Shown here piece by piece: positions 3,571 through 11,366 of a stretch of 64,000 nucleotides of DNA. Positions within the stretch are counted from its first letter, which is position 1. Each line of letters starts with the position of its first letter. A program made the position numbers and the translations under genes. The DNA lies in contig JAMPAV010000001.1 of assembly GCA_023667055.1 (NCBI GenBank), forward strand, positions 559,836 through 623,835, written 5' to 3'. Source of the DNA: Muribaculum sp. (lineage in GTDB: Bacteria; Bacteroidota; Bacteroidia; Bacteroidales; Muribaculaceae). The notes beneath the pieces are model-generated. The model made no database searches. It was not told the DNA's origin and worked only from the letters and a program-made list of their open reading frames with translations.

Positions 3571-6456
3571 TTATTTAACATCCTTAATGGGACGAACAGG
3601 ATAAACTTCGCAGTGTGCACTTGTCCCCTCAGGCTCAATCTTGACTTCGCCATCTTTCCCTAATTTAAAGATACAGGAATAATTAGAATCAGTGGAATTC
3701 TTGTTGCCATCTGCCGTCCATAAAAAGAAATTATTAAAATCTGTAGTTGTACCACTCAACGGACGTCTTCCTGTCGAAGTCAGTTCAATTTTCTTCCCGG
3801 TCTTATTCTTTCCCGTATAAAATACATAATTATTATAGAAAGAATCTGGTCCTGTTCGTATGCCATTCAACCAGCCATCAAACATATTCAATCTATTAGT
3901 CGCTTTGTTTTTATCAGCAATTTCTTTGGCATAATTATTGGCATCACTGTTAAGCTTGTTAGTATCACTATATTCATGTTTGTGTTCAGATTTATATTCT
4001 TCAGTATATTTATTAATATCTTCCGAATGTAGTTTATCTAATTCTTCAGTCTCCTTTTTATTTGGATGGTTCTCGCCTCCAACACTAAATATCTTGAATA
4101 CCTCGTGTCCGGGCATCCTAAATCCTACGGGAGATGGATCAAATATAGTTTTATCAAGAGAATTCCATGCATTATTATCTATCTCGCTCATCCAACTGGT
4201 TCCTGTAGATCCAAAAGCAATTTCATTCGGCTTTTCGATAGACTGTTTAATTGAAAATGTCCCATGACCCAACATATTCGGAGATTGTTCCGAAACTAAA
4301 TATTCGCTGCTTTTCGGATACAAAGGTTTATATTTTTTACCATACGGATTCGTAACACACTCTGAGATATTATCCACACCCATAAATGGATCCTTACGTC
4401 CCCACTGATACGTGGCGGAATTATGATCCTGAGTTGTGACCTTAAACTCTTTAAGTGTCAAAGGAAGAGTAACAGTGTTTCCACTTATTGCTTGAGTAAA
4501 TGTAACATTTCCGTTTCGTTCGGCGTATGTAACGGTTTTGCTGTTGCAGAAACCCAAGTTGTTATTCATCAAGACATATTTTGTACTCGAGTTATCATAA
4601 TCGTCAATCTCAGTGCAATCTTCATAAATACCTTTGTCATAACTGTAATCATATACCCATATATGCCAACTCCACAAGATGTTGTTCTTACCATCTCTAA
4701 CTCCTATGGTGGCATTGCCTTGCTGAATATGATCCGTGTCAATGCTGAAAATAACACGTTTATTGACTTTGTCATACTTTACATCCGAAATAAGGCCAAG
4801 GCCATCCATCCAAAGAATGGTAGCATTATCAATATTCTCAATTTCAGGCTTTGTGGTAATATATTTAGCGTATTTATACGAGTCCGAATTTATTATTCCA
4901 TTAGTATAACTATTGCCATAAACGGTTGGGAAACAATATGTACCGGCGCTATTCACCACATAACAATTGGCTGTTGACCTTGGAACAACACCTCCAACAT
5001 AATCATGAGTTGAAAGATCCCATGGATTATCTGTCGTCCCCCTTGGTCCTTTTTCCTTTAGTTTAGTGTCGCCCGGATAACTCGAGGATAACAGACGATT
5101 GGGACTTACTGTTACATTCCAGGTTTCCCCGGTAACACTTCCTTTGCCTTCCGACATCAAACTTTCAATCCAGTTTTCAGGATCGCGTACTACATTAAAT
5201 CCGTCATCAAATCCCTTATCCGTTGCTGTGCCGGCAACGACATACCAACCTATCGGTTCCTTTACTGTTGGATTTCCGGTTCGTTGGCGATATGATTTCA
5301 CCACGCAGTTCCCACTCTGTTCGCCTTCTACAAATGACAGTTCGTTTTTGTCAATCTCAAAGAGATATGTCCAATTGATTGACGAACTTGACAGCGTGTA
5401 TGTGTAATGTTTTCCAGCTTCCCATTGTGATATGTTACCGGCGCTATAGGCTGAAGCCACAAGACGTTTGGTCACAGTATTGTTATTTTCCTCACATTCG
5501 AGTTCCACCTCAAATTCCACATTATCCGACTCTATGTCTTGCGGAAGAAGCATGAATGTAGCAGAAGGCTTTTGTGAAGTTATTTCTGTCGGTTTGCCGT
5601 CTTCAACATCTATGTCGAAAGTCTGCGTGAAGTTGGTAAGGCCTTCATCAAGCGTCCAGTTCATCACTGGAGTGGATTTTTCAACGTTTTCAATTTCTGA
5701 ATATGTAAGAGCACCGCTTTTGCGAGCGTTGCGAATTGTTATCGTCTTAATTTTACCTTTCCTGAAATCGCCGACATTGAAACTGACAGCAGCCAATGCA
5801 TGACGTAATTTCAAGGGTACGTTTCCTTCATGTTTAGCAGCCACATCATTATAGCTGCATTTTGAATATCCCAGCAGGATATCCGGCTGTGCCTCTGCAT
5901 CAGTATTGGAATTTTCACTGTGTGGCACTGAATAAGATGTTGTGATAGATCCGTTGGTACAGGTCAGATTCATGTTATCCGGAATCATTGCGGATGCATA
6001 GAATTCGATTTGTTCGGACTTATCGCTGGGCCAATATCTTGTGTCGGAACCCGACCAGATATTACCATTTTTTGATATTGGGTATTTCACCATATATGGA
6101 GTGTTGCCTTTGACAAAAGCATCAACTAAAATATTTTTTGCCACCTTGTCAATATTGGTGGAGTTGATTACTACTCCACGTGTTTCCATATAATTGCTTA
6201 ATGTCTGATAATTTGAAACATCAGTGTGGAAATACAATGAATCTTTTCCTGTCACCGACATTCCATACATGGGATATATGACATCCTCGGCAGCACTTCT
6301 GGTCATGCCTGATTCAGCAACATCATCCACGAGAAATGAAATGTGCCCTTCACCATGTTGATGATTGAAGATAGCCTCATCTGAGCATGCTGACAAAGAC
6401 AATGTCAAAAGTATTGTATAAAAGACCTTTGTTAAAATGTTCTTTTGTAGGTTCAT
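3571..6456 (-). CDS. large fimbrillin-like surface lipoprotein
   Basis: 961 residues. A lipoprotein signal ends at LSAC (Cys24), so the precursor is probably lipidated before surface assembly, as in Mfa1/FimA-type pili of Bacteroidales. The first third (about 35-360) looks like a Mfa-like fimbrillin domain: after a TRSAA segment there are GMSVTG, DTRYWPSD and later LKLRHALAAVSFNV, the conserved RHAL.. strand. The middle (about 370-620) is less familiar. The last third (YQWGRKDPF, DPSPVGFRMP, TGRRPLSG, FLWTADG, YPVRPIKD) resembles the FISUMP-type repeats found at the ends of Bacteroidetes surface proteins. Size and a second domain suggest a tip or accessory subunit, not the shaft. It is the last gene of the operon, 147 bases after the smaller fimbrillin gene. 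Confidence 0.8.
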   Translation of the reverse strand: MNLQKNILTKVFYTILLTLSLSACSDEAIFNHQHGEGHISFLVDDVAESGMTRSAAEDVIYPMYGMSVTGKDSLYFHTDVSNYQTLSNYMETRGVVINSTNIDKVAKNILVDAFVKGNTPYMVKYPISKNGNIWSGSDTRYWPSDKSEQIEFYASAMIPDNMNLTCTNGSITTSYSVPHSENSNTDAEAQPDILLGYSKCSYNDVAAKHEGNVPLKLRHALAAVSFNVGDFRKGKIKTITIRNARKSGALTYSEIENVEKSTPVMNWTLDEGLTNFTQTFDIDVEDGKPTEITSQKPSATFMLLPQDIESDNVEFEVELECEENNNTVTKRLVASAYSAGNISQWEAGKHYTYTLSSSSINWTYLFEIDKNELSFVEGEQSGNCVVKSYRQRTGNPTVKEPIGWYVVAGTATDKGFDDGFNVVRDPENWIESLMSEGKGSVTGETWNVTVSPNRLLSSSYPGDTKLKEKGPRGTTDNPWDLSTHDYVGGVVPRSTANCYVVNSAGTYCFPTVYGNSYTNGIINSDSYKYAKYITTKPEIENIDNATILWMDGLGLISDVKYDKVNKRVIFSIDTDHIQQGNATIGVRDGKNNILWSWHIWVYDYSYDKGIYEDCTEIDDYDNSSTKYVLMNNNLGFCNSKTVTYAERNGNVTFTQAISGNTVTLPLTLKEFKVTTQDHNSATYQWGRKDPFMGVDNISECVTNPYGKKYKPLYPKSSEYLVSEQSPNMLGHGTFSIKQSIEKPNEIAFGSTGTSWMSEIDNNAWNSLDKTIFDPSPVGFRMPGHEVFKIFSVGGENHPNKKETEELDKLHSEDINKYTEEYKSEHKHEYSDTNKLNSDANNYAKEIADKNKATNRLNMFDGWLNGIRTGPDSFYNNYVFYTGKNKTGKKIELTSTGRRPLSGTTTDFNNFFLWTADGNKNSTDSNYSCIFKLGKDGEVKIEPEGTSAHCEVYPVRPIKDVK

Positions 6457-6493
6457 CGGTGAGTTTAATTAATTTTTTTGAGAAGAAATATCC

Positions 6494-6518
6494 GGGGAGA
6501 GGAGATTTCCCTCTCCCC
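6494..6518 (-). terminator. hairpin between the two fimbrillin genes
   Basis: GGGGAGA (6494-6500) pairs with TCTCCCC (6512-6518). On the minus strand it follows the stop of the 429-residue fimbrillin gene and is followed by GGATATTTCTTCTC, a weak T-rich tail. It could be a partial terminator or mRNA stabiliser that makes the downstream large subunit less abundant. Confidence 0.5.
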
Positions 6519-6603
6519 AGTTCATTGTGGTTGCTTTGGCCGTTTAAATATTTGGAAATTAGATTAGTGTAGATCTAACTATCTCTTTTTGGCTTATTGT
6601 TGA

Positions 6604-7893
6604 TTATTTTGTATTCACTTCTTTATCTTGATCTTCGGCTTTAATGAACTCGTCAATATCTACACTCCATTTGATGTCGAAAAGAACAGGCTTTTCTGTT
6701 TCAGGATCATATCCTCCATTGCCTTGGCCAAATATGAATGTGTATGTATATTTATGGCCTTCAACCCAATTCGGATCAAAAGGAATTAAGACATCTTTTG
6801 CCTCAACTGTACCGTCATCTTTAGTATCACCCCAGTGAACATAATTATCAGATAAATCATTGGCATTACCATCACTTAAATTATAGATACGACATTTTAC
6901 AAGAAAATGTGGAGCAGTTGTCAAGGTTAAATTTGGCGGATAGTCACTAATTACATTAGAGGTTTCACCCGTAGAAGTCTTCACATCCTTTTTAGAAGGA
7001 ATCAAGAGCATTGCTTTGCTGAAGTCTCCATGTTTGGTTCCTACGGTTTCCCCATTTTCATCAGTTACAGGAGTGTCTGTGTGTGTGGTGAGATCGACCA
7101 AATCCCCATCGCCAACAATCTTGGCGTAATTCTTATCTGGAACATTGCTCCTAACGCCTACACGATATTCGGTGTCGTTGGTATTAGATGAGAGTACCCA
7201 TGAACCGCAATTATAACCGGTTGCGTTTCCAAAACTGCTAGGATGATCGAAATGTGAATCGGTATCTCCTGTTGGGAAAGTGTAAGTGCCTTCACCAAAT
7301 ACATTTTTTACGGCGACCTCCTCTATTTCAACGTAAAAATTCTTGTTGGTATTCTTAGCATTGAAAACAATCTGAGAAAGAGCATGTCGGAAATTTAACT
7401 TTACGGATTCTCCTGTAGTCTTACTCTGGCTTTTAACTGCATACATTAGATCCACTTGCCCTGGAGTAGTTACTTCATTATCCTCTTCATCTTTACTCAC
7501 AACGTTTGCAACGTTAGAATTTACAGTGAATTTCACAAATTTAGGCGCGTTTTTTGCGTCATCCCATTCGAAGGTTTTATTATCATTGTGAAATCCATAG
7601 AATGTAACTGTGTTATTGTCTGGCCAAAAACGCTTACCTGTCACGTTCTCCCATCCACCATTCTTATTCTCAATTTTATCACCCTTAATGTAGAATTTAT
7701 CATCCACTTTAGCATATACGGTGAAGTCCTTGAATACGTTATAGCTGCAGTAGATATCGGCGGCACGGGTGCCGTTCTCGGTTGTCACGCCAAACTTGAT
7801 GGCGTTGGACTCGTTGTTGACGGGAACAACTTCGTCGTTGGAGCATGCGGCCAACATTGAGACCGCGATGCCTGCGAAAAGTAATTTTTTCAT
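6604..7893 (-). CDS. fimbrillin family lipoprotein (probable major or minor pilin)
   Basis: 429 residues with a lipobox LAAC (Cys17) after MKKLLFAGIAVSM. Mature start SNDEVVPVN is followed by NAIKFGVTTENGTRA, the conserved beginning of Mfa-like fimbrillins (an arginine near this point is where gingipain-type processing occurs in Porphyromonas; whether that happens here is unknown). GKRFWPDNNTVTFYGFHND and VKLNFRHALSQIVFNAKN are further family signatures. The end (HKYTYTFIFGQGNGGYDPE..LFDIKWSVDIDEF) fits the second transthyretin-like domain. Third gene of the operon after DUF3575 and DUF5119 genes. Its 3' neighbour may be the tip partner. A 60-bp tandem repeat lies just upstream, between this gene and the DUF5119 gene. 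Confidence 0.85.
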   Translation of the reverse strand: MKKLLFAGIAVSMLAACSNDEVVPVNNESNAIKFGVTTENGTRAADIYCSYNVFKDFTVYAKVDDKFYIKGDKIENKNGGWENVTGKRFWPDNNTVTFYGFHNDNKTFEWDDAKNAPKFVKFTVNSNVANVVSKDEEDNEVTTPGQVDLMYAVKSQSKTTGESVKLNFRHALSQIVFNAKNTNKNFYVEIEEVAVKNVFGEGTYTFPTGDTDSHFDHPSSFGNATGYNCGSWVLSSNTNDTEYRVGVRSNVPDKNYAKIVGDGDLVDLTTHTDTPVTDENGETVGTKHGDFSKAMLLIPSKKDVKTSTGETSNVISDYPPNLTLTTAPHFLVKCRIYNLSDGNANDLSDNYVHWGDTKDDGTVEAKDVLIPFDPNWVEGHKYTYTFIFGQGNGGYDPETEKPVLFDIKWSVDIDEFIKAEDQDKEVNTK

Positions 7894-7969
7894 CTTTTTT
7901 TTGTTGGTTAATTAATTAGTTTATTTTTATTTATGTATTATGTTTTTTTATTATTTCCTTTGTCAATCC

Positions 7970-8122
7970 GAATTCAAAATTCCCAATTCAAAATTCCCGA
8001 ATCTTCTTCTCCTCAGTCAAACGAATTCAAAATTCAAAATTCCCAATTCAAAATTCCCAAATCTTCTTCTCCTCAGTCAAACGAATTCAAAATTCAAAAT
8101 TCCCAATTCAAAATTCCCAATT
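7970..8122. repeat. 60-bp tandem repeat between fimbrial genes
   Basis: Positions 7981-8040, 8041-8100 and 8101-8120 repeat with an exact 60-bp period. Each unit contains TCCCAATTCAAAATTCCC, then AATCTTCTTCTCCTCAGTCA, then AACGAATTCAAAATTCAAAA, and is itself built from nested AATTCAAA words. The copies differ at one base (CGA/CAA). The array fills the 230-base gap between the DUF5119 gene (ends 8127) and the fimbrillin gene (starts 7893). Confidence 0.9.
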
Positions 8123-8126
8123 AAAC

Positions 8127-9104
8127 CTACAGCTCAATATCCTGCTGCACGTCGTCCCAGTCGTCGAGGTCCGGCACCATGCCGCTTCCTCCCTCGATCG
8201 GGGTCGGTATGCTGAGCCCGTCTATAACCAGATGCACCCTCCTGCGGTCTGGAGCAGAATGCACCTGTCCGGTGACATCGAGGTTGGATCCGCTTGTGAA
8301 ACTGTATTTCGAGCCGTCGATCATCTCCACATAGAATGCCATTCTGTGAGGGGCGGATAATTCCTCATGATGACCGAAGGTGTAAAACTGTCCGCGCACC
8401 GTTGACTCCCCGTCCTTCCACGCCTCCACGGGGAGGGTGACATGGTCGTCGTGGAGTGTTTCCCCGGCCAGGTAGAGGGCCGGCGACATGCCGCTGAGCG
8501 CGCCGGAGATCTTCGCCACCTTGTCAAGGTTATCTACATTGCGCACCTCGTAGCTGTAGAGGCAGAGCATGTCGTGCGGATAGAGGGTGATGGTCTGGTC
8601 CTCCTCCCCGGTCACTACAACCTCAGTCTCGGAGCATCCCCACAGACAGTCGGGGGTGATCACCACCTCCTCGTCGCAGAAATTGCCGTTGCCGCCGCCC
8701 GTGGAGAGCCCGTTGCCATACATCGGCTCCAGAATATGTCCGGTCCTGGTGTAGCCGAAGTGCATGTCGAAGGCGCCGGTGCCGCCAAACTGCACGGCCT
8801 CTGTGTCGTTGTTGTAGGTAAGGGCGAGGTATCTGCCCGGCTTGAGCTGTATCTCGCCGCCCCGGGTGTTGCTGAAGTCGAAACGTGTGGCGTAGGAATC
8901 CACGTCGCGTCCTACCGGGTAGAAGAAGACGCACATGCCGGCGGGGTTCGCATCGGGGGCCTCGCTCCAGTCATACACGAGCTGCAGCCTGACGCCATGC
9001 GGGTGGTCGTAGCAGAACTCCTTGTGCTCGCACGATGACATCAGCAGGAGCAGTGTCACCACAGCCATCAGCGGAAGTATGGACAGGAGCATATTCCAAA
9101 GCAT
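8127..9104 (-). CDS. DUF5119 lipoprotein of the fimbrial operon
   Basis: 325 residues from the ATG at 9104. The frame is open back to an ATG at 9176 that overlaps the previous gene, but the extra 24 residues (NAQCILRNALCTMRNAQ) are the translation of a simple GCACAATG-type spacer repeat, so the later start is preferred; the upstream one would give ATGA-type coupling and cannot be excluded. A long hydrophobic leader ends in a lipobox LMSSC (Cys25), followed by EHKEFCYDHPHGVRLQLVYD, WSEAPDANPAGM and PGRYLALTYNNDTE, the pattern of DUF5119. Such proteins accompany fimbrillins in Bacteroidales pili and are inferred to be minor or anchor subunits. The gene is unusually GC-rich compared with the fimbrillin genes after it. 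Confidence 0.8.
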   Translation of the reverse strand: MLWNMLLSILPLMAVVTLLLLMSSCEHKEFCYDHPHGVRLQLVYDWSEAPDANPAGMCVFFYPVGRDVDSYATRFDFSNTRGGEIQLKPGRYLALTYNNDTEAVQFGGTGAFDMHFGYTRTGHILEPMYGNGLSTGGGNGNFCDEEVVITPDCLWGCSETEVVVTGEEDQTITLYPHDMLCLYSYEVRNVDNLDKVAKISGALSGMSPALYLAGETLHDDHVTLPVEAWKDGESTVRGQFYTFGHHEELSAPHRMAFYVEMIDGSKYSFTSGSNLDVTGQVHSAPDRRRVHLVIDGLSIPTPIEGGSGMVPDLDDWDDVQQDIEL

Positions 9105-9106
9105 TG

Positions 9107-9166
9107 ATTGTGCATTGCGCATTGTGCATAGCGCATTGCGCAATATGCACTGTGCATTGACATTAT
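9107..9166. repeat. GCACAATG-type degenerate spacer repeat
   Basis: Runs of TGCATTGCGCAT, TGTGCAT, AGCGCAT, TGCGCAATATGCAC, TGTGCATTGAC. The same kind of word recurs at 15211-15240 and 21485-21540. Here it fills the junction between the DUF3575 and DUF5119 genes and confuses start choice for the latter. Confidence 0.75.
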
Positions 9167-10554
9167 TGCTCATCACGCACCTCCTTTCTCTTGTTGACGT
9201 TGCCGTGGCCGATCAGCCACACCAGCGCCACCTCCGCCTTCGTCGGGCCGAGATAGTGACGGCGGTGGGTGGATTGCCACACGTAGTGGCCGTCCTTTGG
9301 CTCGTATTTCTCGTATAGTCCCGTTGTGTAGCCCACTCCGAGCGAGAAGTCTATGTTGAGGTGCTTGCCGATTGGGAGCGAGTAGCCGTACTCGAGGCCG
9401 AGCCCCCACATGCACCTGTCCCAGAGTGTGCCGCCCGGCTTGCCACCGATCTCGCCGGTGCCGCCCAACTCGAAGTCGTAGGTATAGACCTGCGCGTATG
9501 CGCCGAGGTGGTGTCCGGTGAGCGGTTTGCGGTGTGCCTTCTTGCCAAACCACCAGCGGCCGAACAGCTCGCCGCCGTAGGCACGCCAGTAGAAACTGCT
9601 GCTGTCTTTCTTCCACCATGCGTAGAGCCAGTTGCCCCCGAGCGATATGTCCTTGCCCAGGTATATCTCCACCCCGATGTTGGGCAGGGCGAGGGCGTCG
9701 TAGAGCATGTTGGTCCTTATGTCCATGTAGAAGGGCTTACGGGGTTCCTCCTCGATTTCCGGTTGCAAAGGTGGCAACTCCACAATGCTGATGGAGTCGA
9801 GGGCCGGCAACGCCGCCTCTGTCATGAGCTCTGTCTCAAACGGCACATAGATAGGGTTGGGGCGTTTCTCATACCACACCACAAGCTGTGAGGCGCGGAG
9901 CTCTGGGAAAAGATTGGCATACATATATCTGTATGGCACGCCTTTCCTTATCCGCTTCAGGTCGGCCACACTGTTTTCCCTCGGCACGGGGTTGTTGCGT
10001 ATGTCCATGATTATTTCGTCGATGGCCGCGAGTGTCTCGTCGCGGTAGGGCATGTTGTCATCCGCTGCCACCATTCTCCGCAGACCTTCCCAGTCCCGAC
10101 CGAGAAACCTGAAAATCTTCAGGGAGTCCGGGATGTCTGTGTATTTGGAAAGATAACTGAAGAGTGTGTTGGCGCGACGTTCCGACAGTCCCTGGTTGAA
10201 TGCCACCGAACCTTCGGGTGAGGCAGCTCCGAGCACCTCGATCCTGGTGATTTTATATAGGGTGTCGGCGAGCAGACTCTTGAATTTGTCTTCTATGCGG
10301 TTGAGTTCATGGCGGTTGTTGTGGAGATCAAGCTGCAGGTCGTGTTTGCTCTGCCTGAAGTAGATCCTCACGGAGTCAACGGCCATATCATCAGAATCGA
10401 CGGCAACCATGGGGTGTTCGTCTGAAGGAATCCCCGGCGCTGCTGCATTCTGTGCAAACGCATTGAAACCCAACAAGGCCAATAGCATCAGGATTACTGA
10501 CACTCCTGTCCTCTTGAATTTTAGATTAATTATATGCATCTTTACACGCTCCAT
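9163..10554 (-). CDS. DUF3575 outer-membrane protein with OmpA-like segment, first gene of the fimbrial operon
   Basis: 463 residues. ATGs at 10554 and 10539 both precede a signal peptide (about residues 17-35, ending AFAQ). Residues 60-150 carry an OmpA-like motif: IEVLGAASPEGSVAFNQGLS then ERRANTLFSYL. The C-terminal half (PFYMDIRTNMLYDALALPNI, VEIYLGKDISLGGNWLYAWW, ending in aromatic beta-strand segments) fits DUF3575, a predicted outer-membrane beta-barrel. In Bacteroidales this family heads fimbrial operons and is presumed to help anchor or assemble the pilus at the outer membrane. The next gene's possible early ATG overlaps its stop. It is the first gene downstream of the invertible promoter region, with a leader of roughly 240 nt. 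Confidence 0.8.
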   Translation of the reverse strand: MERVKMHIINLKFKRTGVSVILMLLALLGFNAFAQNAAAPGIPSDEHPMVAVDSDDMAVDSVRIYFRQSKHDLQLDLHNNRHELNRIEDKFKSLLADTLYKITRIEVLGAASPEGSVAFNQGLSERRANTLFSYLSKYTDIPDSLKIFRFLGRDWEGLRRMVAADDNMPYRDETLAAIDEIIMDIRNNPVPRENSVADLKRIRKGVPYRYMYANLFPELRASQLVVWYEKRPNPIYVPFETELMTEAALPALDSISIVELPPLQPEIEEEPRKPFYMDIRTNMLYDALALPNIGVEIYLGKDISLGGNWLYAWWKKDSSSFYWRAYGGELFGRWWFGKKAHRKPLTGHHLGAYAQVYTYDFELGGTGEIGGKPGGTLWDRCMWGLGLEYGYSLPIGKHLNIDFSLGVGYTTGLYEKYEPKDGHYVWQSTHRRHYLGPTKAEVALVWLIGHGNVNKRKEVRDEQ

Positions 10555-10770
10555 ATTTGCTATTACATCAATCCGATAGTAATCGTCTGTCGTATATCCT
10601 TGTTAATAATTTGTACTATGTTGTGATTGCGTCCCCAAATGGTGAAAGGGTCGGCATAATTTGTATTGTTTCTTTATTGCGTTGTCAATCAATCTGATTG
10701 GCAGTATCTTTACATCAAAACTCGATTGTCTTCTCAAGTAAGTGATACCAGTCTTGACTATCATTTTTAG

Positions 10771-10791
10771 GTATCTCTATCCAAGAGATAC
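10771..10791 (+). repeat. left inverted repeat of the invertible promoter
   Basis: GTATCTCT-ATCCA-AGAGATAC: two 8-bp palindromic arms around an asymmetric 5-base core, the design of a tyrosine-recombinase crossover site. Its reverse complement recurs at 10958-10976. Confidence 0.8.
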
Positions 10792-10804
10792 TTGATTCAT
10801 GGCG

Positions 10805-10836
10805 CAAAGTTATACAATTTATTAGATATGTGCAAG
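10805..10836 (-). promoter_or_regulatory. fimbrial operon promoter inside the invertible segment
   Basis: On the minus strand CTTG (10836-10833), 20 bases, then TAACTTTG (10812-10805), followed by CG: a good match to the Bacteroidetes TTTG-N20-TAnnTTTG promoter. It points to the DUF3575 gene, whose start is about 240 bases downstream. Because it lies between the inverted repeats, inversion of the segment would turn it toward ung. The present orientation is therefore predicted to be ON. Confidence 0.7.
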
Positions 10837-10889
10837 TTTTGCGCGTCTTTTTTTTGTTAAAAATTTCAAATTTTTAAAACATCCTTGCC

Positions 10890-10997
10890 GATTGTTTAGC
10901 AAACGACAAAATCTGGATTGTTTAAAATTCGCATTGCCAATTAATTACAAAATTTCAGTATCTCTTGGATAGAGATTTTACGATTTGCTAAACAATC
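10890..10997. repeat. 14-bp inverted pair overlapping the invertible segment
   Basis: GATTGTTTAGCAAA at 10890-10903 and its exact complement TTTGCTAAACAATC at 10984-10997. One arm is inside and one just outside the main inverted repeats, so inversion would change their relation from inverted to direct. A third partial copy (GGATTGTTTA) lies at 10915-10924. Confidence 0.7.
10958..10976 (-). repeat. right inverted repeat of the invertible promoter
   Basis: GTATCTCT-TGGAT-AGAGAT, 19 bases matching the reverse complement of the left copy exactly; only the outermost two bases of the 21-base site differ. The two sites enclose 166 bases. Confidence 0.8.
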
Positions 10998-11043
10998 TAA
11001 CTCAAATTTCGGTTTTAAATCTATTCACGTAATGGATAGAAAA

Positions 11044-11366
11044 GATTCGACCTCAAACGCAGATCCGGCTTCGCCGGGTTTCGCGCGGAGGAACGCGGAT
11101 CTCTTTTTAATTCAACGTCATCTCAGGCAATGCAGATTAATTTTGCCGTGCAAAATTTCGGATAGGGACCGATAGCTGCGGAATCTGCCACGGAAATTTT
11201 TTCAGAAGTCGGCGATCCGTATCTATCGGCTTTCATCGGCAATTTTGCGTAAGCAAAATGATCGGCGTTGCCATGCCTAAAAAACTTCAAATATTTGAAA
11301 TTTAATAAAATCCGCATCTATCCGCGCACAAACCGGCCTTCGCCGGATCCGCGTTGGGGTCAAATC
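11044..11366. mobile_element. MITE-like element with 57-bp imperfect terminal inverted repeats
   Basis: The left end (11044-11100: GATTCGACCTCAAACGCAGA then TCCGGC..) and the reverse complement of the right end (11310-11366: GATTTGACCCCAACGCGGAT then CCGGC..) match at about three quarters of positions with one or two single-base gaps. Each end carries its own GCCGG-type hairpin. The interior has two small hairpins, ATTTTGC/GCAAAAT at 11139-11157 and again at 11242-11259, and no coding frame. The structure fits a non-autonomous, foldback or MITE-type repeat; no target-site duplication was clearly identified. Confidence 0.6.

Follow-up and report, generated by a model that had tools for sequence, protein, structure and literature searches.

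The fimbrial operon and its promoter segment

The window analysed here is a 64-kb stretch of DNA (contig C11, positions 559836-623835) from a Muribaculum genome that is available as a metagenome-type assembly of 85 contigs with a completeness of 94%. It carries a minus-strand operon of surface genes, which opens with the gene of a 463-aa DUF3575 protein (9163-10554) that has a paralogue on contig C69 (L018:4835-6226). This gene is followed by a DUF5119 lipoprotein-like gene (8127-9176) and a fimbrillin gene (Mfa_like_1, 6604-7893), both recognized by their domain matches. A 961-aa, adhesin-like surface protein with no Pfam match is encoded on the same strand (3571-6456), and we infer that its gene is probably the last of the operon. 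On the other side of the promoter region lies ung. A terminator-like hairpin is found between ung and the nearer of the two sites described below (11080-11099, plus strand); it is weak, as the region has two such hairpins where shuffled sequences would be expected to give 0.9. An intergenic repeat family is also represented on this side (window 10998-11277), with copies at C11:891225, 159037 and 687307 and on contigs C70, C72 and C46 that are 77-96% identical.

Upstream of the DUF3575 gene, two recombination sites in inverted orientation delimit the invertible segment (10773-10976). The left site (10771-10791) reads GTATCTCT-ATCCA-AGAGATAC, with palindromic arms around the core ATCCA, and the right site (10958-10978) reads GTATCTCT-TGGAT-AGAGATTT, with a core that is reverse-complementary to the left one. 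Each site by itself is a near-perfect palindrome. Common to both is an exact inverted repeat of 20/20 bp (10773-10792 and 10957-10976, arms 164 bp apart), and a direct count over the whole 64-kb window gave no other exact inverted repeat of at least 18 bp within 300 bp. An earlier note on this DNA had described two inverted sites with arms around an asymmetric ATCCA/TGGAT core. Sites and core were found as described, with the exception that the outer arm of the right site (AGAGATTT) is imperfect. The core of the recombination sites is 5 bp long, and a degenerate site pattern with a 7-bp spacer accordingly gave no matches. One near-match to the site, at C3:40638, lies within a coding sequence without a partner site and was dismissed as chance.

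Between the sites is a Bacteroidota-type promoter on the minus strand (10805-10836), in which CTTG (10836-10833) is separated by N20 from TAACTTTG (10812-10805). It fits the Bacteroides promoter consensus TAnnTTTG (cited in PMC3090145), and transcription would be expected to start near 10798. The CTTG-N20-TAACTTTG promoter directed towards a DUF3575-DUF5119-fimbrillin operon, as proposed in the earlier note, is present, and the genes of the operon were confirmed by their domains. Inverted sites on either side of a promoter that precedes surface genes are the arrangement of a Bacteroidales invertible promoter. The -7 element is located 24 bp from the centre of the left core, and this position is conserved: nearly all scorable elements of the family described below have it at a distance of 21-24 bp. 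Because of this short distance, the predicted transcript starts with the left site itself, which folds into an 8-bp hairpin at its 5' end. In B. fragilis, expression is reported to be inversely correlated with how many repeats separate promoter and gene (PMC4747536); by analogy, the 5' hairpin derived from the left site could therefore matter for expression.

Orientation of the segment and the wider family of switches

The exact site occurs four times in the genome, as the pair in the window and as a second pair at equal spacing on contig C69 (L018), where a paralogous operon encodes DUF3575, DUF5119 and three fimbrillins. On the left flank, C69 and the window are collinear through the left site, with 96.5% identity over 1.78 kb and 98.7% over the nearest 1508 bp. 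The right side is collinear as well, over the first 48 bp counted outwards from the right site (window 10954-11001, 87.5%). The intervening 204 bp match C69 (L018:6445-6648) only on the opposite strand, with 90.2% identity. Since the flanks are collinear while the segment matches only in reverse, the window represents ON and C69 represents OFF: judged from this alignment, the promoter faces DUF3575 in the former and points away from it in the latter, and if C69 stems from a sister strain, as is possible, the reversal is one between strains and not within one. Within the segment, the promoter is preserved best, with 1/37 positions changed between the two copies, as compared with 8/52 and 9/51 in the stretches neighbouring it (17/103 together).

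The switch and the DUF3575 gene are 96-99% identical in the two copies (window 3571-10795 against L018:1-6467), and the DUF5119 and fimbrillin genes are strongly diverged. On sequence, this divergence behind a near-identical switch looks as if cassettes had been exchanged behind a shared switch.

Reversals were also found among the relatives. Both flanks are collinear and the segment is reversed between L108 and L166 (94.9%) and between L108 and L111 (88.9%), and the segment also appears reversed between L106 and L107, which belong to the genome of one relative. Sequence comparison thus gave both orientations between the same flanks in paralogue as well as orthologue pairs, in line with the phase-variable, invertible promoter layout that the earlier note had put forward. 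Several contigs end at switch elements. Such ends are expected if the two orientations confuse the assembly, and repeats have the same effect.

A DNA similarity search with the switch region against 60 relatives gave matches in its own genome only, and other elements were therefore located through the site pattern. The pattern was present in 23 of the 61 genus genomes, with approximately zero matches for a reversed control pattern, and in an order-wide scan the full site was no more than sporadic outside Muribaculaceae (6/198 genomes). Muribaculaceae Isolate-037, Muribaculum caecicola, Phocaeicola sartorii and Barnesiella WM24 are among the cultured relatives with such elements. In the loci that were read, all 35 true pairs, with sites 100-400 bp apart, have reverse-complementary cores, and direct (equal-core) pairs were not encountered (0). 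Sixteen different cores are found among these pairs, the core differing between loci, and the sole three mismatching core combinations all include a third site close to a matched pair. Strand exchange requires homology in the overlap. The cores are free between loci and matched within each locus, as is seen in recombination sites. The earlier note had named a lack of conserved paired sites in relatives as part of the evidence against a switch; the pairs and the matching of their cores are conserved across the genus.

Being a near-perfect palindrome, each site would fold into a hairpin at the start of the RNA, and the inverted repeats could also be read as operators of a regulator, or as a hairpin or terminator, with no recombination involved. 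We consider this highly improbable. The operator reading is contradicted by the paralogue and by other pairs of loci, in which the sites enclose a reversed segment, and pair-specific cores would be unexpected for operators.

The genes targeted by the elements vary, and include NusG/UpxY, EcoRI-type methylase, SrfB-like and fimbrial genes. Within the genome under study, an element on C4 (cores TAACA/TGTTA) lies before a NusG/UpxY-type gene, and one on C70 (cores TGCTA/TAGCA) before a gene with a C-terminal UpxY domain. The product of the latter gene (L019:1455-2861, 468 aa) joins an unknown domain to UpxY: the 160 aa at its C-terminus fit the model of the UpxY antiterminator, and its N-terminal 275 aa have no match in Pfam or PDB. 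A recombinase-like origin of this N-terminal part was unsupported when examined. At L101:5874-6088 and 7581-7794, two tandem switches with different cores are situated beside one recombinase gene. At L155:1688-2913, a gene for an EcoRI-type adenine methylase is immediately preceded by a switch whose core is that of the window element (ATCCA/TGGAT), an arrangement which suggests phase-variable restriction-modification. Pairs with variant arms were found beside a recombinase gene in some genomes that had been scored as site-negative (L136, L146, L155).

Tyrosine recombinases linked to the sites

The genome has six matches to tyrosine recombinases (Phage_integrase), none of them within the 64-kb window. 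The earlier note, having seen no recombinase there, had assumed a trans-acting one, and two intact tyrosine recombinases are indeed encoded elsewhere, on C78 and C2. A further tyrosine recombinase gene, on C55 (L092:4520-5718), is interrupted by a stop or frameshift, leaving parts of 278 and 115 aa, and is apparently broken. Relatives of the C78 and C2 proteins, 56-75% identical to them, directly adjoin sites in other genomes. In approximately 20 loci (about 45 homologues), a site was found 27-97 bp past the stop codon of the gene of a 400-aa tyrosine recombinase. With around four sites per 3-Mb genome, almost no such case would be expected by chance, and the occurrence of this adjacency in many relatives is a further argument against operators or hairpins. 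Of the 23 site-bearing genomes, 21 have the C78/C2 family, as compared with 14 of the 38 others (Fisher p=3.6e-5, a value that is optimistic with related genomes). No site was found alongside the C78 and C2 genes themselves in the own-genome sequence.

Both proteins keep the catalytic residues R, K, R, H and Y and have arm-binding, core-binding and catalytic domains (Pfam PF17293, PF13102 and PF00589, over cut-off), the combination of three domains and catalytic residues that characterizes IntCTnDOT-type recombinases at the sequence level. The N-terminus of the predicted model of a relative consists of three strands plus a helix. The top Foldseek match of this model was full-length lambda integrase, for which a second look with VIA-align covers mainly residues 105-394. 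In the recombinase tree, C78 and C2 are placed within the site-linked family; the tree is poorly resolved and has no single site-linked clade. The linkage in relatives, together with the intact homologues in the genome, points to a recombinase dedicated to the sites, and we infer that the C78 and/or C2 protein acts on the element in the window.

The switch could also be real and served by a different recombinase, be it the host XerC/XerD, the integrase of prophage type that C1 encodes, or a serine invertase resembling Mpi that the assembly lacks. XerC/D-like proteins are present in the genome, and an assembly that is 94% complete may lack a gene. A serine recombinase, the hallmark of an Mpi-type regulon, was not found: the Resolvase domain (PF00239) gave no match in the genome, and control genomes were positive. 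The linkage to sites in relatives, moreover, concerns the C78/C2 family and not Xer or C1-type proteins, and we regard the involvement of another recombinase as improbable.

The reading that we prefer, with a probability of roughly 0.93, is an ON/OFF phase switch in which a tyrosine recombinase encoded elsewhere inverts a 200-bp promoter segment before the fimbriae operon. The recombinase (C78 and/or C2 protein) would join the two inverted sites, and recombination within the 5-bp matching core would turn the segment around. In the ON state, transcription would run leftwards from the promoter, across the left site and into DUF3575-DUF5119-fimbrillin. With the segment reversed (OFF), the promoter would face the terminator-like hairpin and the operon would be silent, so that transcription of the operon would follow the orientation of the segment. 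Sequence comparison supports this reading through both orientations between matching flanks, through the conserved pairs with their pair-specific cores, and through a recombinase family linked to such sites in relatives.

An accessory motif at the switches and comparison with known systems

The follow-up analysis added a feature that is absent from the earlier note, namely a pair of accessory motifs, TTTGCTAAACAAT, which are candidate arm-type sites. The internal motif (10891-10903, minus strand) lies in the segment end opposite the promoter, at +65 relative to the centre of the right core, and the external motif (10984-10996, plus strand) lies 16-28 bp from the right core centre, away from the operon. 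Genome-wide, ATTTGCTAAACAAT has three exact occurrences, every one at a switch element. Oriented alignments of 70 sites revealed that TTTGCTAAACAAA peaks at +65 inside and, reversed, at -28 outside. With a threshold of at most 3 mismatches of 13, the inner motif was present at +62 to +67 in 31/35 elements, as compared with 0-4/35 for windows of equal width at other offsets. It was never observed at both ends, and it lay opposite the promoter in all 25 scorable elements. A second set, obtained with a different pattern and consisting of named records, demonstrated the inner motif in 19/23 elements, opposite the promoter in 16/16. The outer motif was found in 17/35 elements, and 21/22 scorable elements have it on the side facing away from their target.

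At the locus studied here, the outer motif is on the ung side. The OFF-state promoter would face ung, which is 550 bp off and beyond the terminator-like hairpin, an orientation that the earlier note had mentioned. Hairpin and outer motif leave it unsupported that the reversed promoter serves this gene; since the outer motif lies away from the target in 21/22 scorable elements, ung is probably not a target of the switch.

Because the target genes of the elements differ, the motif seems to belong to the recombination machinery and not to target-specific regulation, and TTTGCTAAACAAA would be a candidate for binding by the N-terminal arm-binding domain of the recombinase. A host factor or transcription regulator might bind there instead, which would affect the arm-site part of the interpretation only. 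The motif is a loose palindrome, TTTG-N5-CAAA, of a kind common among dimeric regulators, but it keeps a fixed distance to the core in 31/35 and 19/23 elements that drive unrelated genes, and the recombinase possesses an arm-binding domain; we hold binding by such a factor to be possible, if somewhat short of even odds. As for the arm-site interpretation, both motifs are at the far site in the ON state, with none at the near site, and the OFF state has one motif at each site. By analogy with integrases, ON resembles attP/attB and OFF resembles attL/attR, a scheme that is not fitted by the 5/35 elements with an outer motif on both sides. Tentatively, and somewhat short of an even chance, the element may be a domesticated integrase system, in which the motifs are arm-type sites, ON to OFF corresponds to integration and OFF to ON to excision, with different helpers. 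If this is true, the switch would be directional and controllable, not a coin toss.

Invertible promoters decide the surface structures of gut Bacteroidota. The arm-like motif set, common to fimbriae, UpxY-type antiterminator and methyltransferase loci, is a concrete and mutable candidate for the basis of their ON/OFF bias. The site pattern also allows phase-variable loci, and the likely invertase, to be listed from sequence alone.

To our knowledge, FimB of E. coli is without an arm-binding domain. The E. coli fimS/FimB system is alike in having an invertible promoter before fimbrial genes and a tyrosine recombinase, and differs in its unrelated fimbriae and in a bias set by host nucleoid proteins (PMC9993118). 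The IntCTnDOT subgroup consists of arm-binding tyrosine recombinases of Bacteroidota with arm-binding, SAM-like core-binding and catalytic domains, as in C78 and C2; its members in PMC8138268 integrate and excise mobile elements, whereas the C78/C2 family would flip promoters. The Mpi regulon of B. fragilis, as outlined in PMC4747536 and PMC3090145, is similar in its many promoters, common inverted repeat, UpxY antiterminator targets and global trans-acting invertase. It differs in that this invertase is a serine recombinase, which the Muribaculum genome was found to be without.

Tsr19 (BF2766) of B. fragilis is a tyrosine recombinase acting on the invertible promoters IVp-I/IVp-II, local and distant (PMC4747536). 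As described there, it inverts one promoter immediately behind its own gene and a second one in trans, and these control surface genes, similar to the C78/C2 family; the likeness is one of description. Tsr19 differs in that it controls exopolysaccharide and outer-membrane genes, and a fixed-position accessory motif is unmentioned in the description of this system in PMC4747536.

A literature search for the repeat sequence gave no match, and a limited search did not find a link between arm-type sites and invertible promoters. A fixed-position motif together with an arm-binding recombinase at invertible promoters was not found described in this limited search and appears to be new. Already known from PMC11892184, as far as its main text describes them, are invertible promoters of gut Bacteroidota before fimbrillin/UpxY genes with a neighbouring integrase. 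The inverton groups reported in that text, where promoter motifs are described and an accessory motif at fixed spacing is not, include group 137, with UpxY, fimbrillin and site-specific integrase as neighbours. This group shares its gene neighbourhood and layout with the Muribaculum switches and, compared by these two features, may belong to the same repeat family (PMC11892184).
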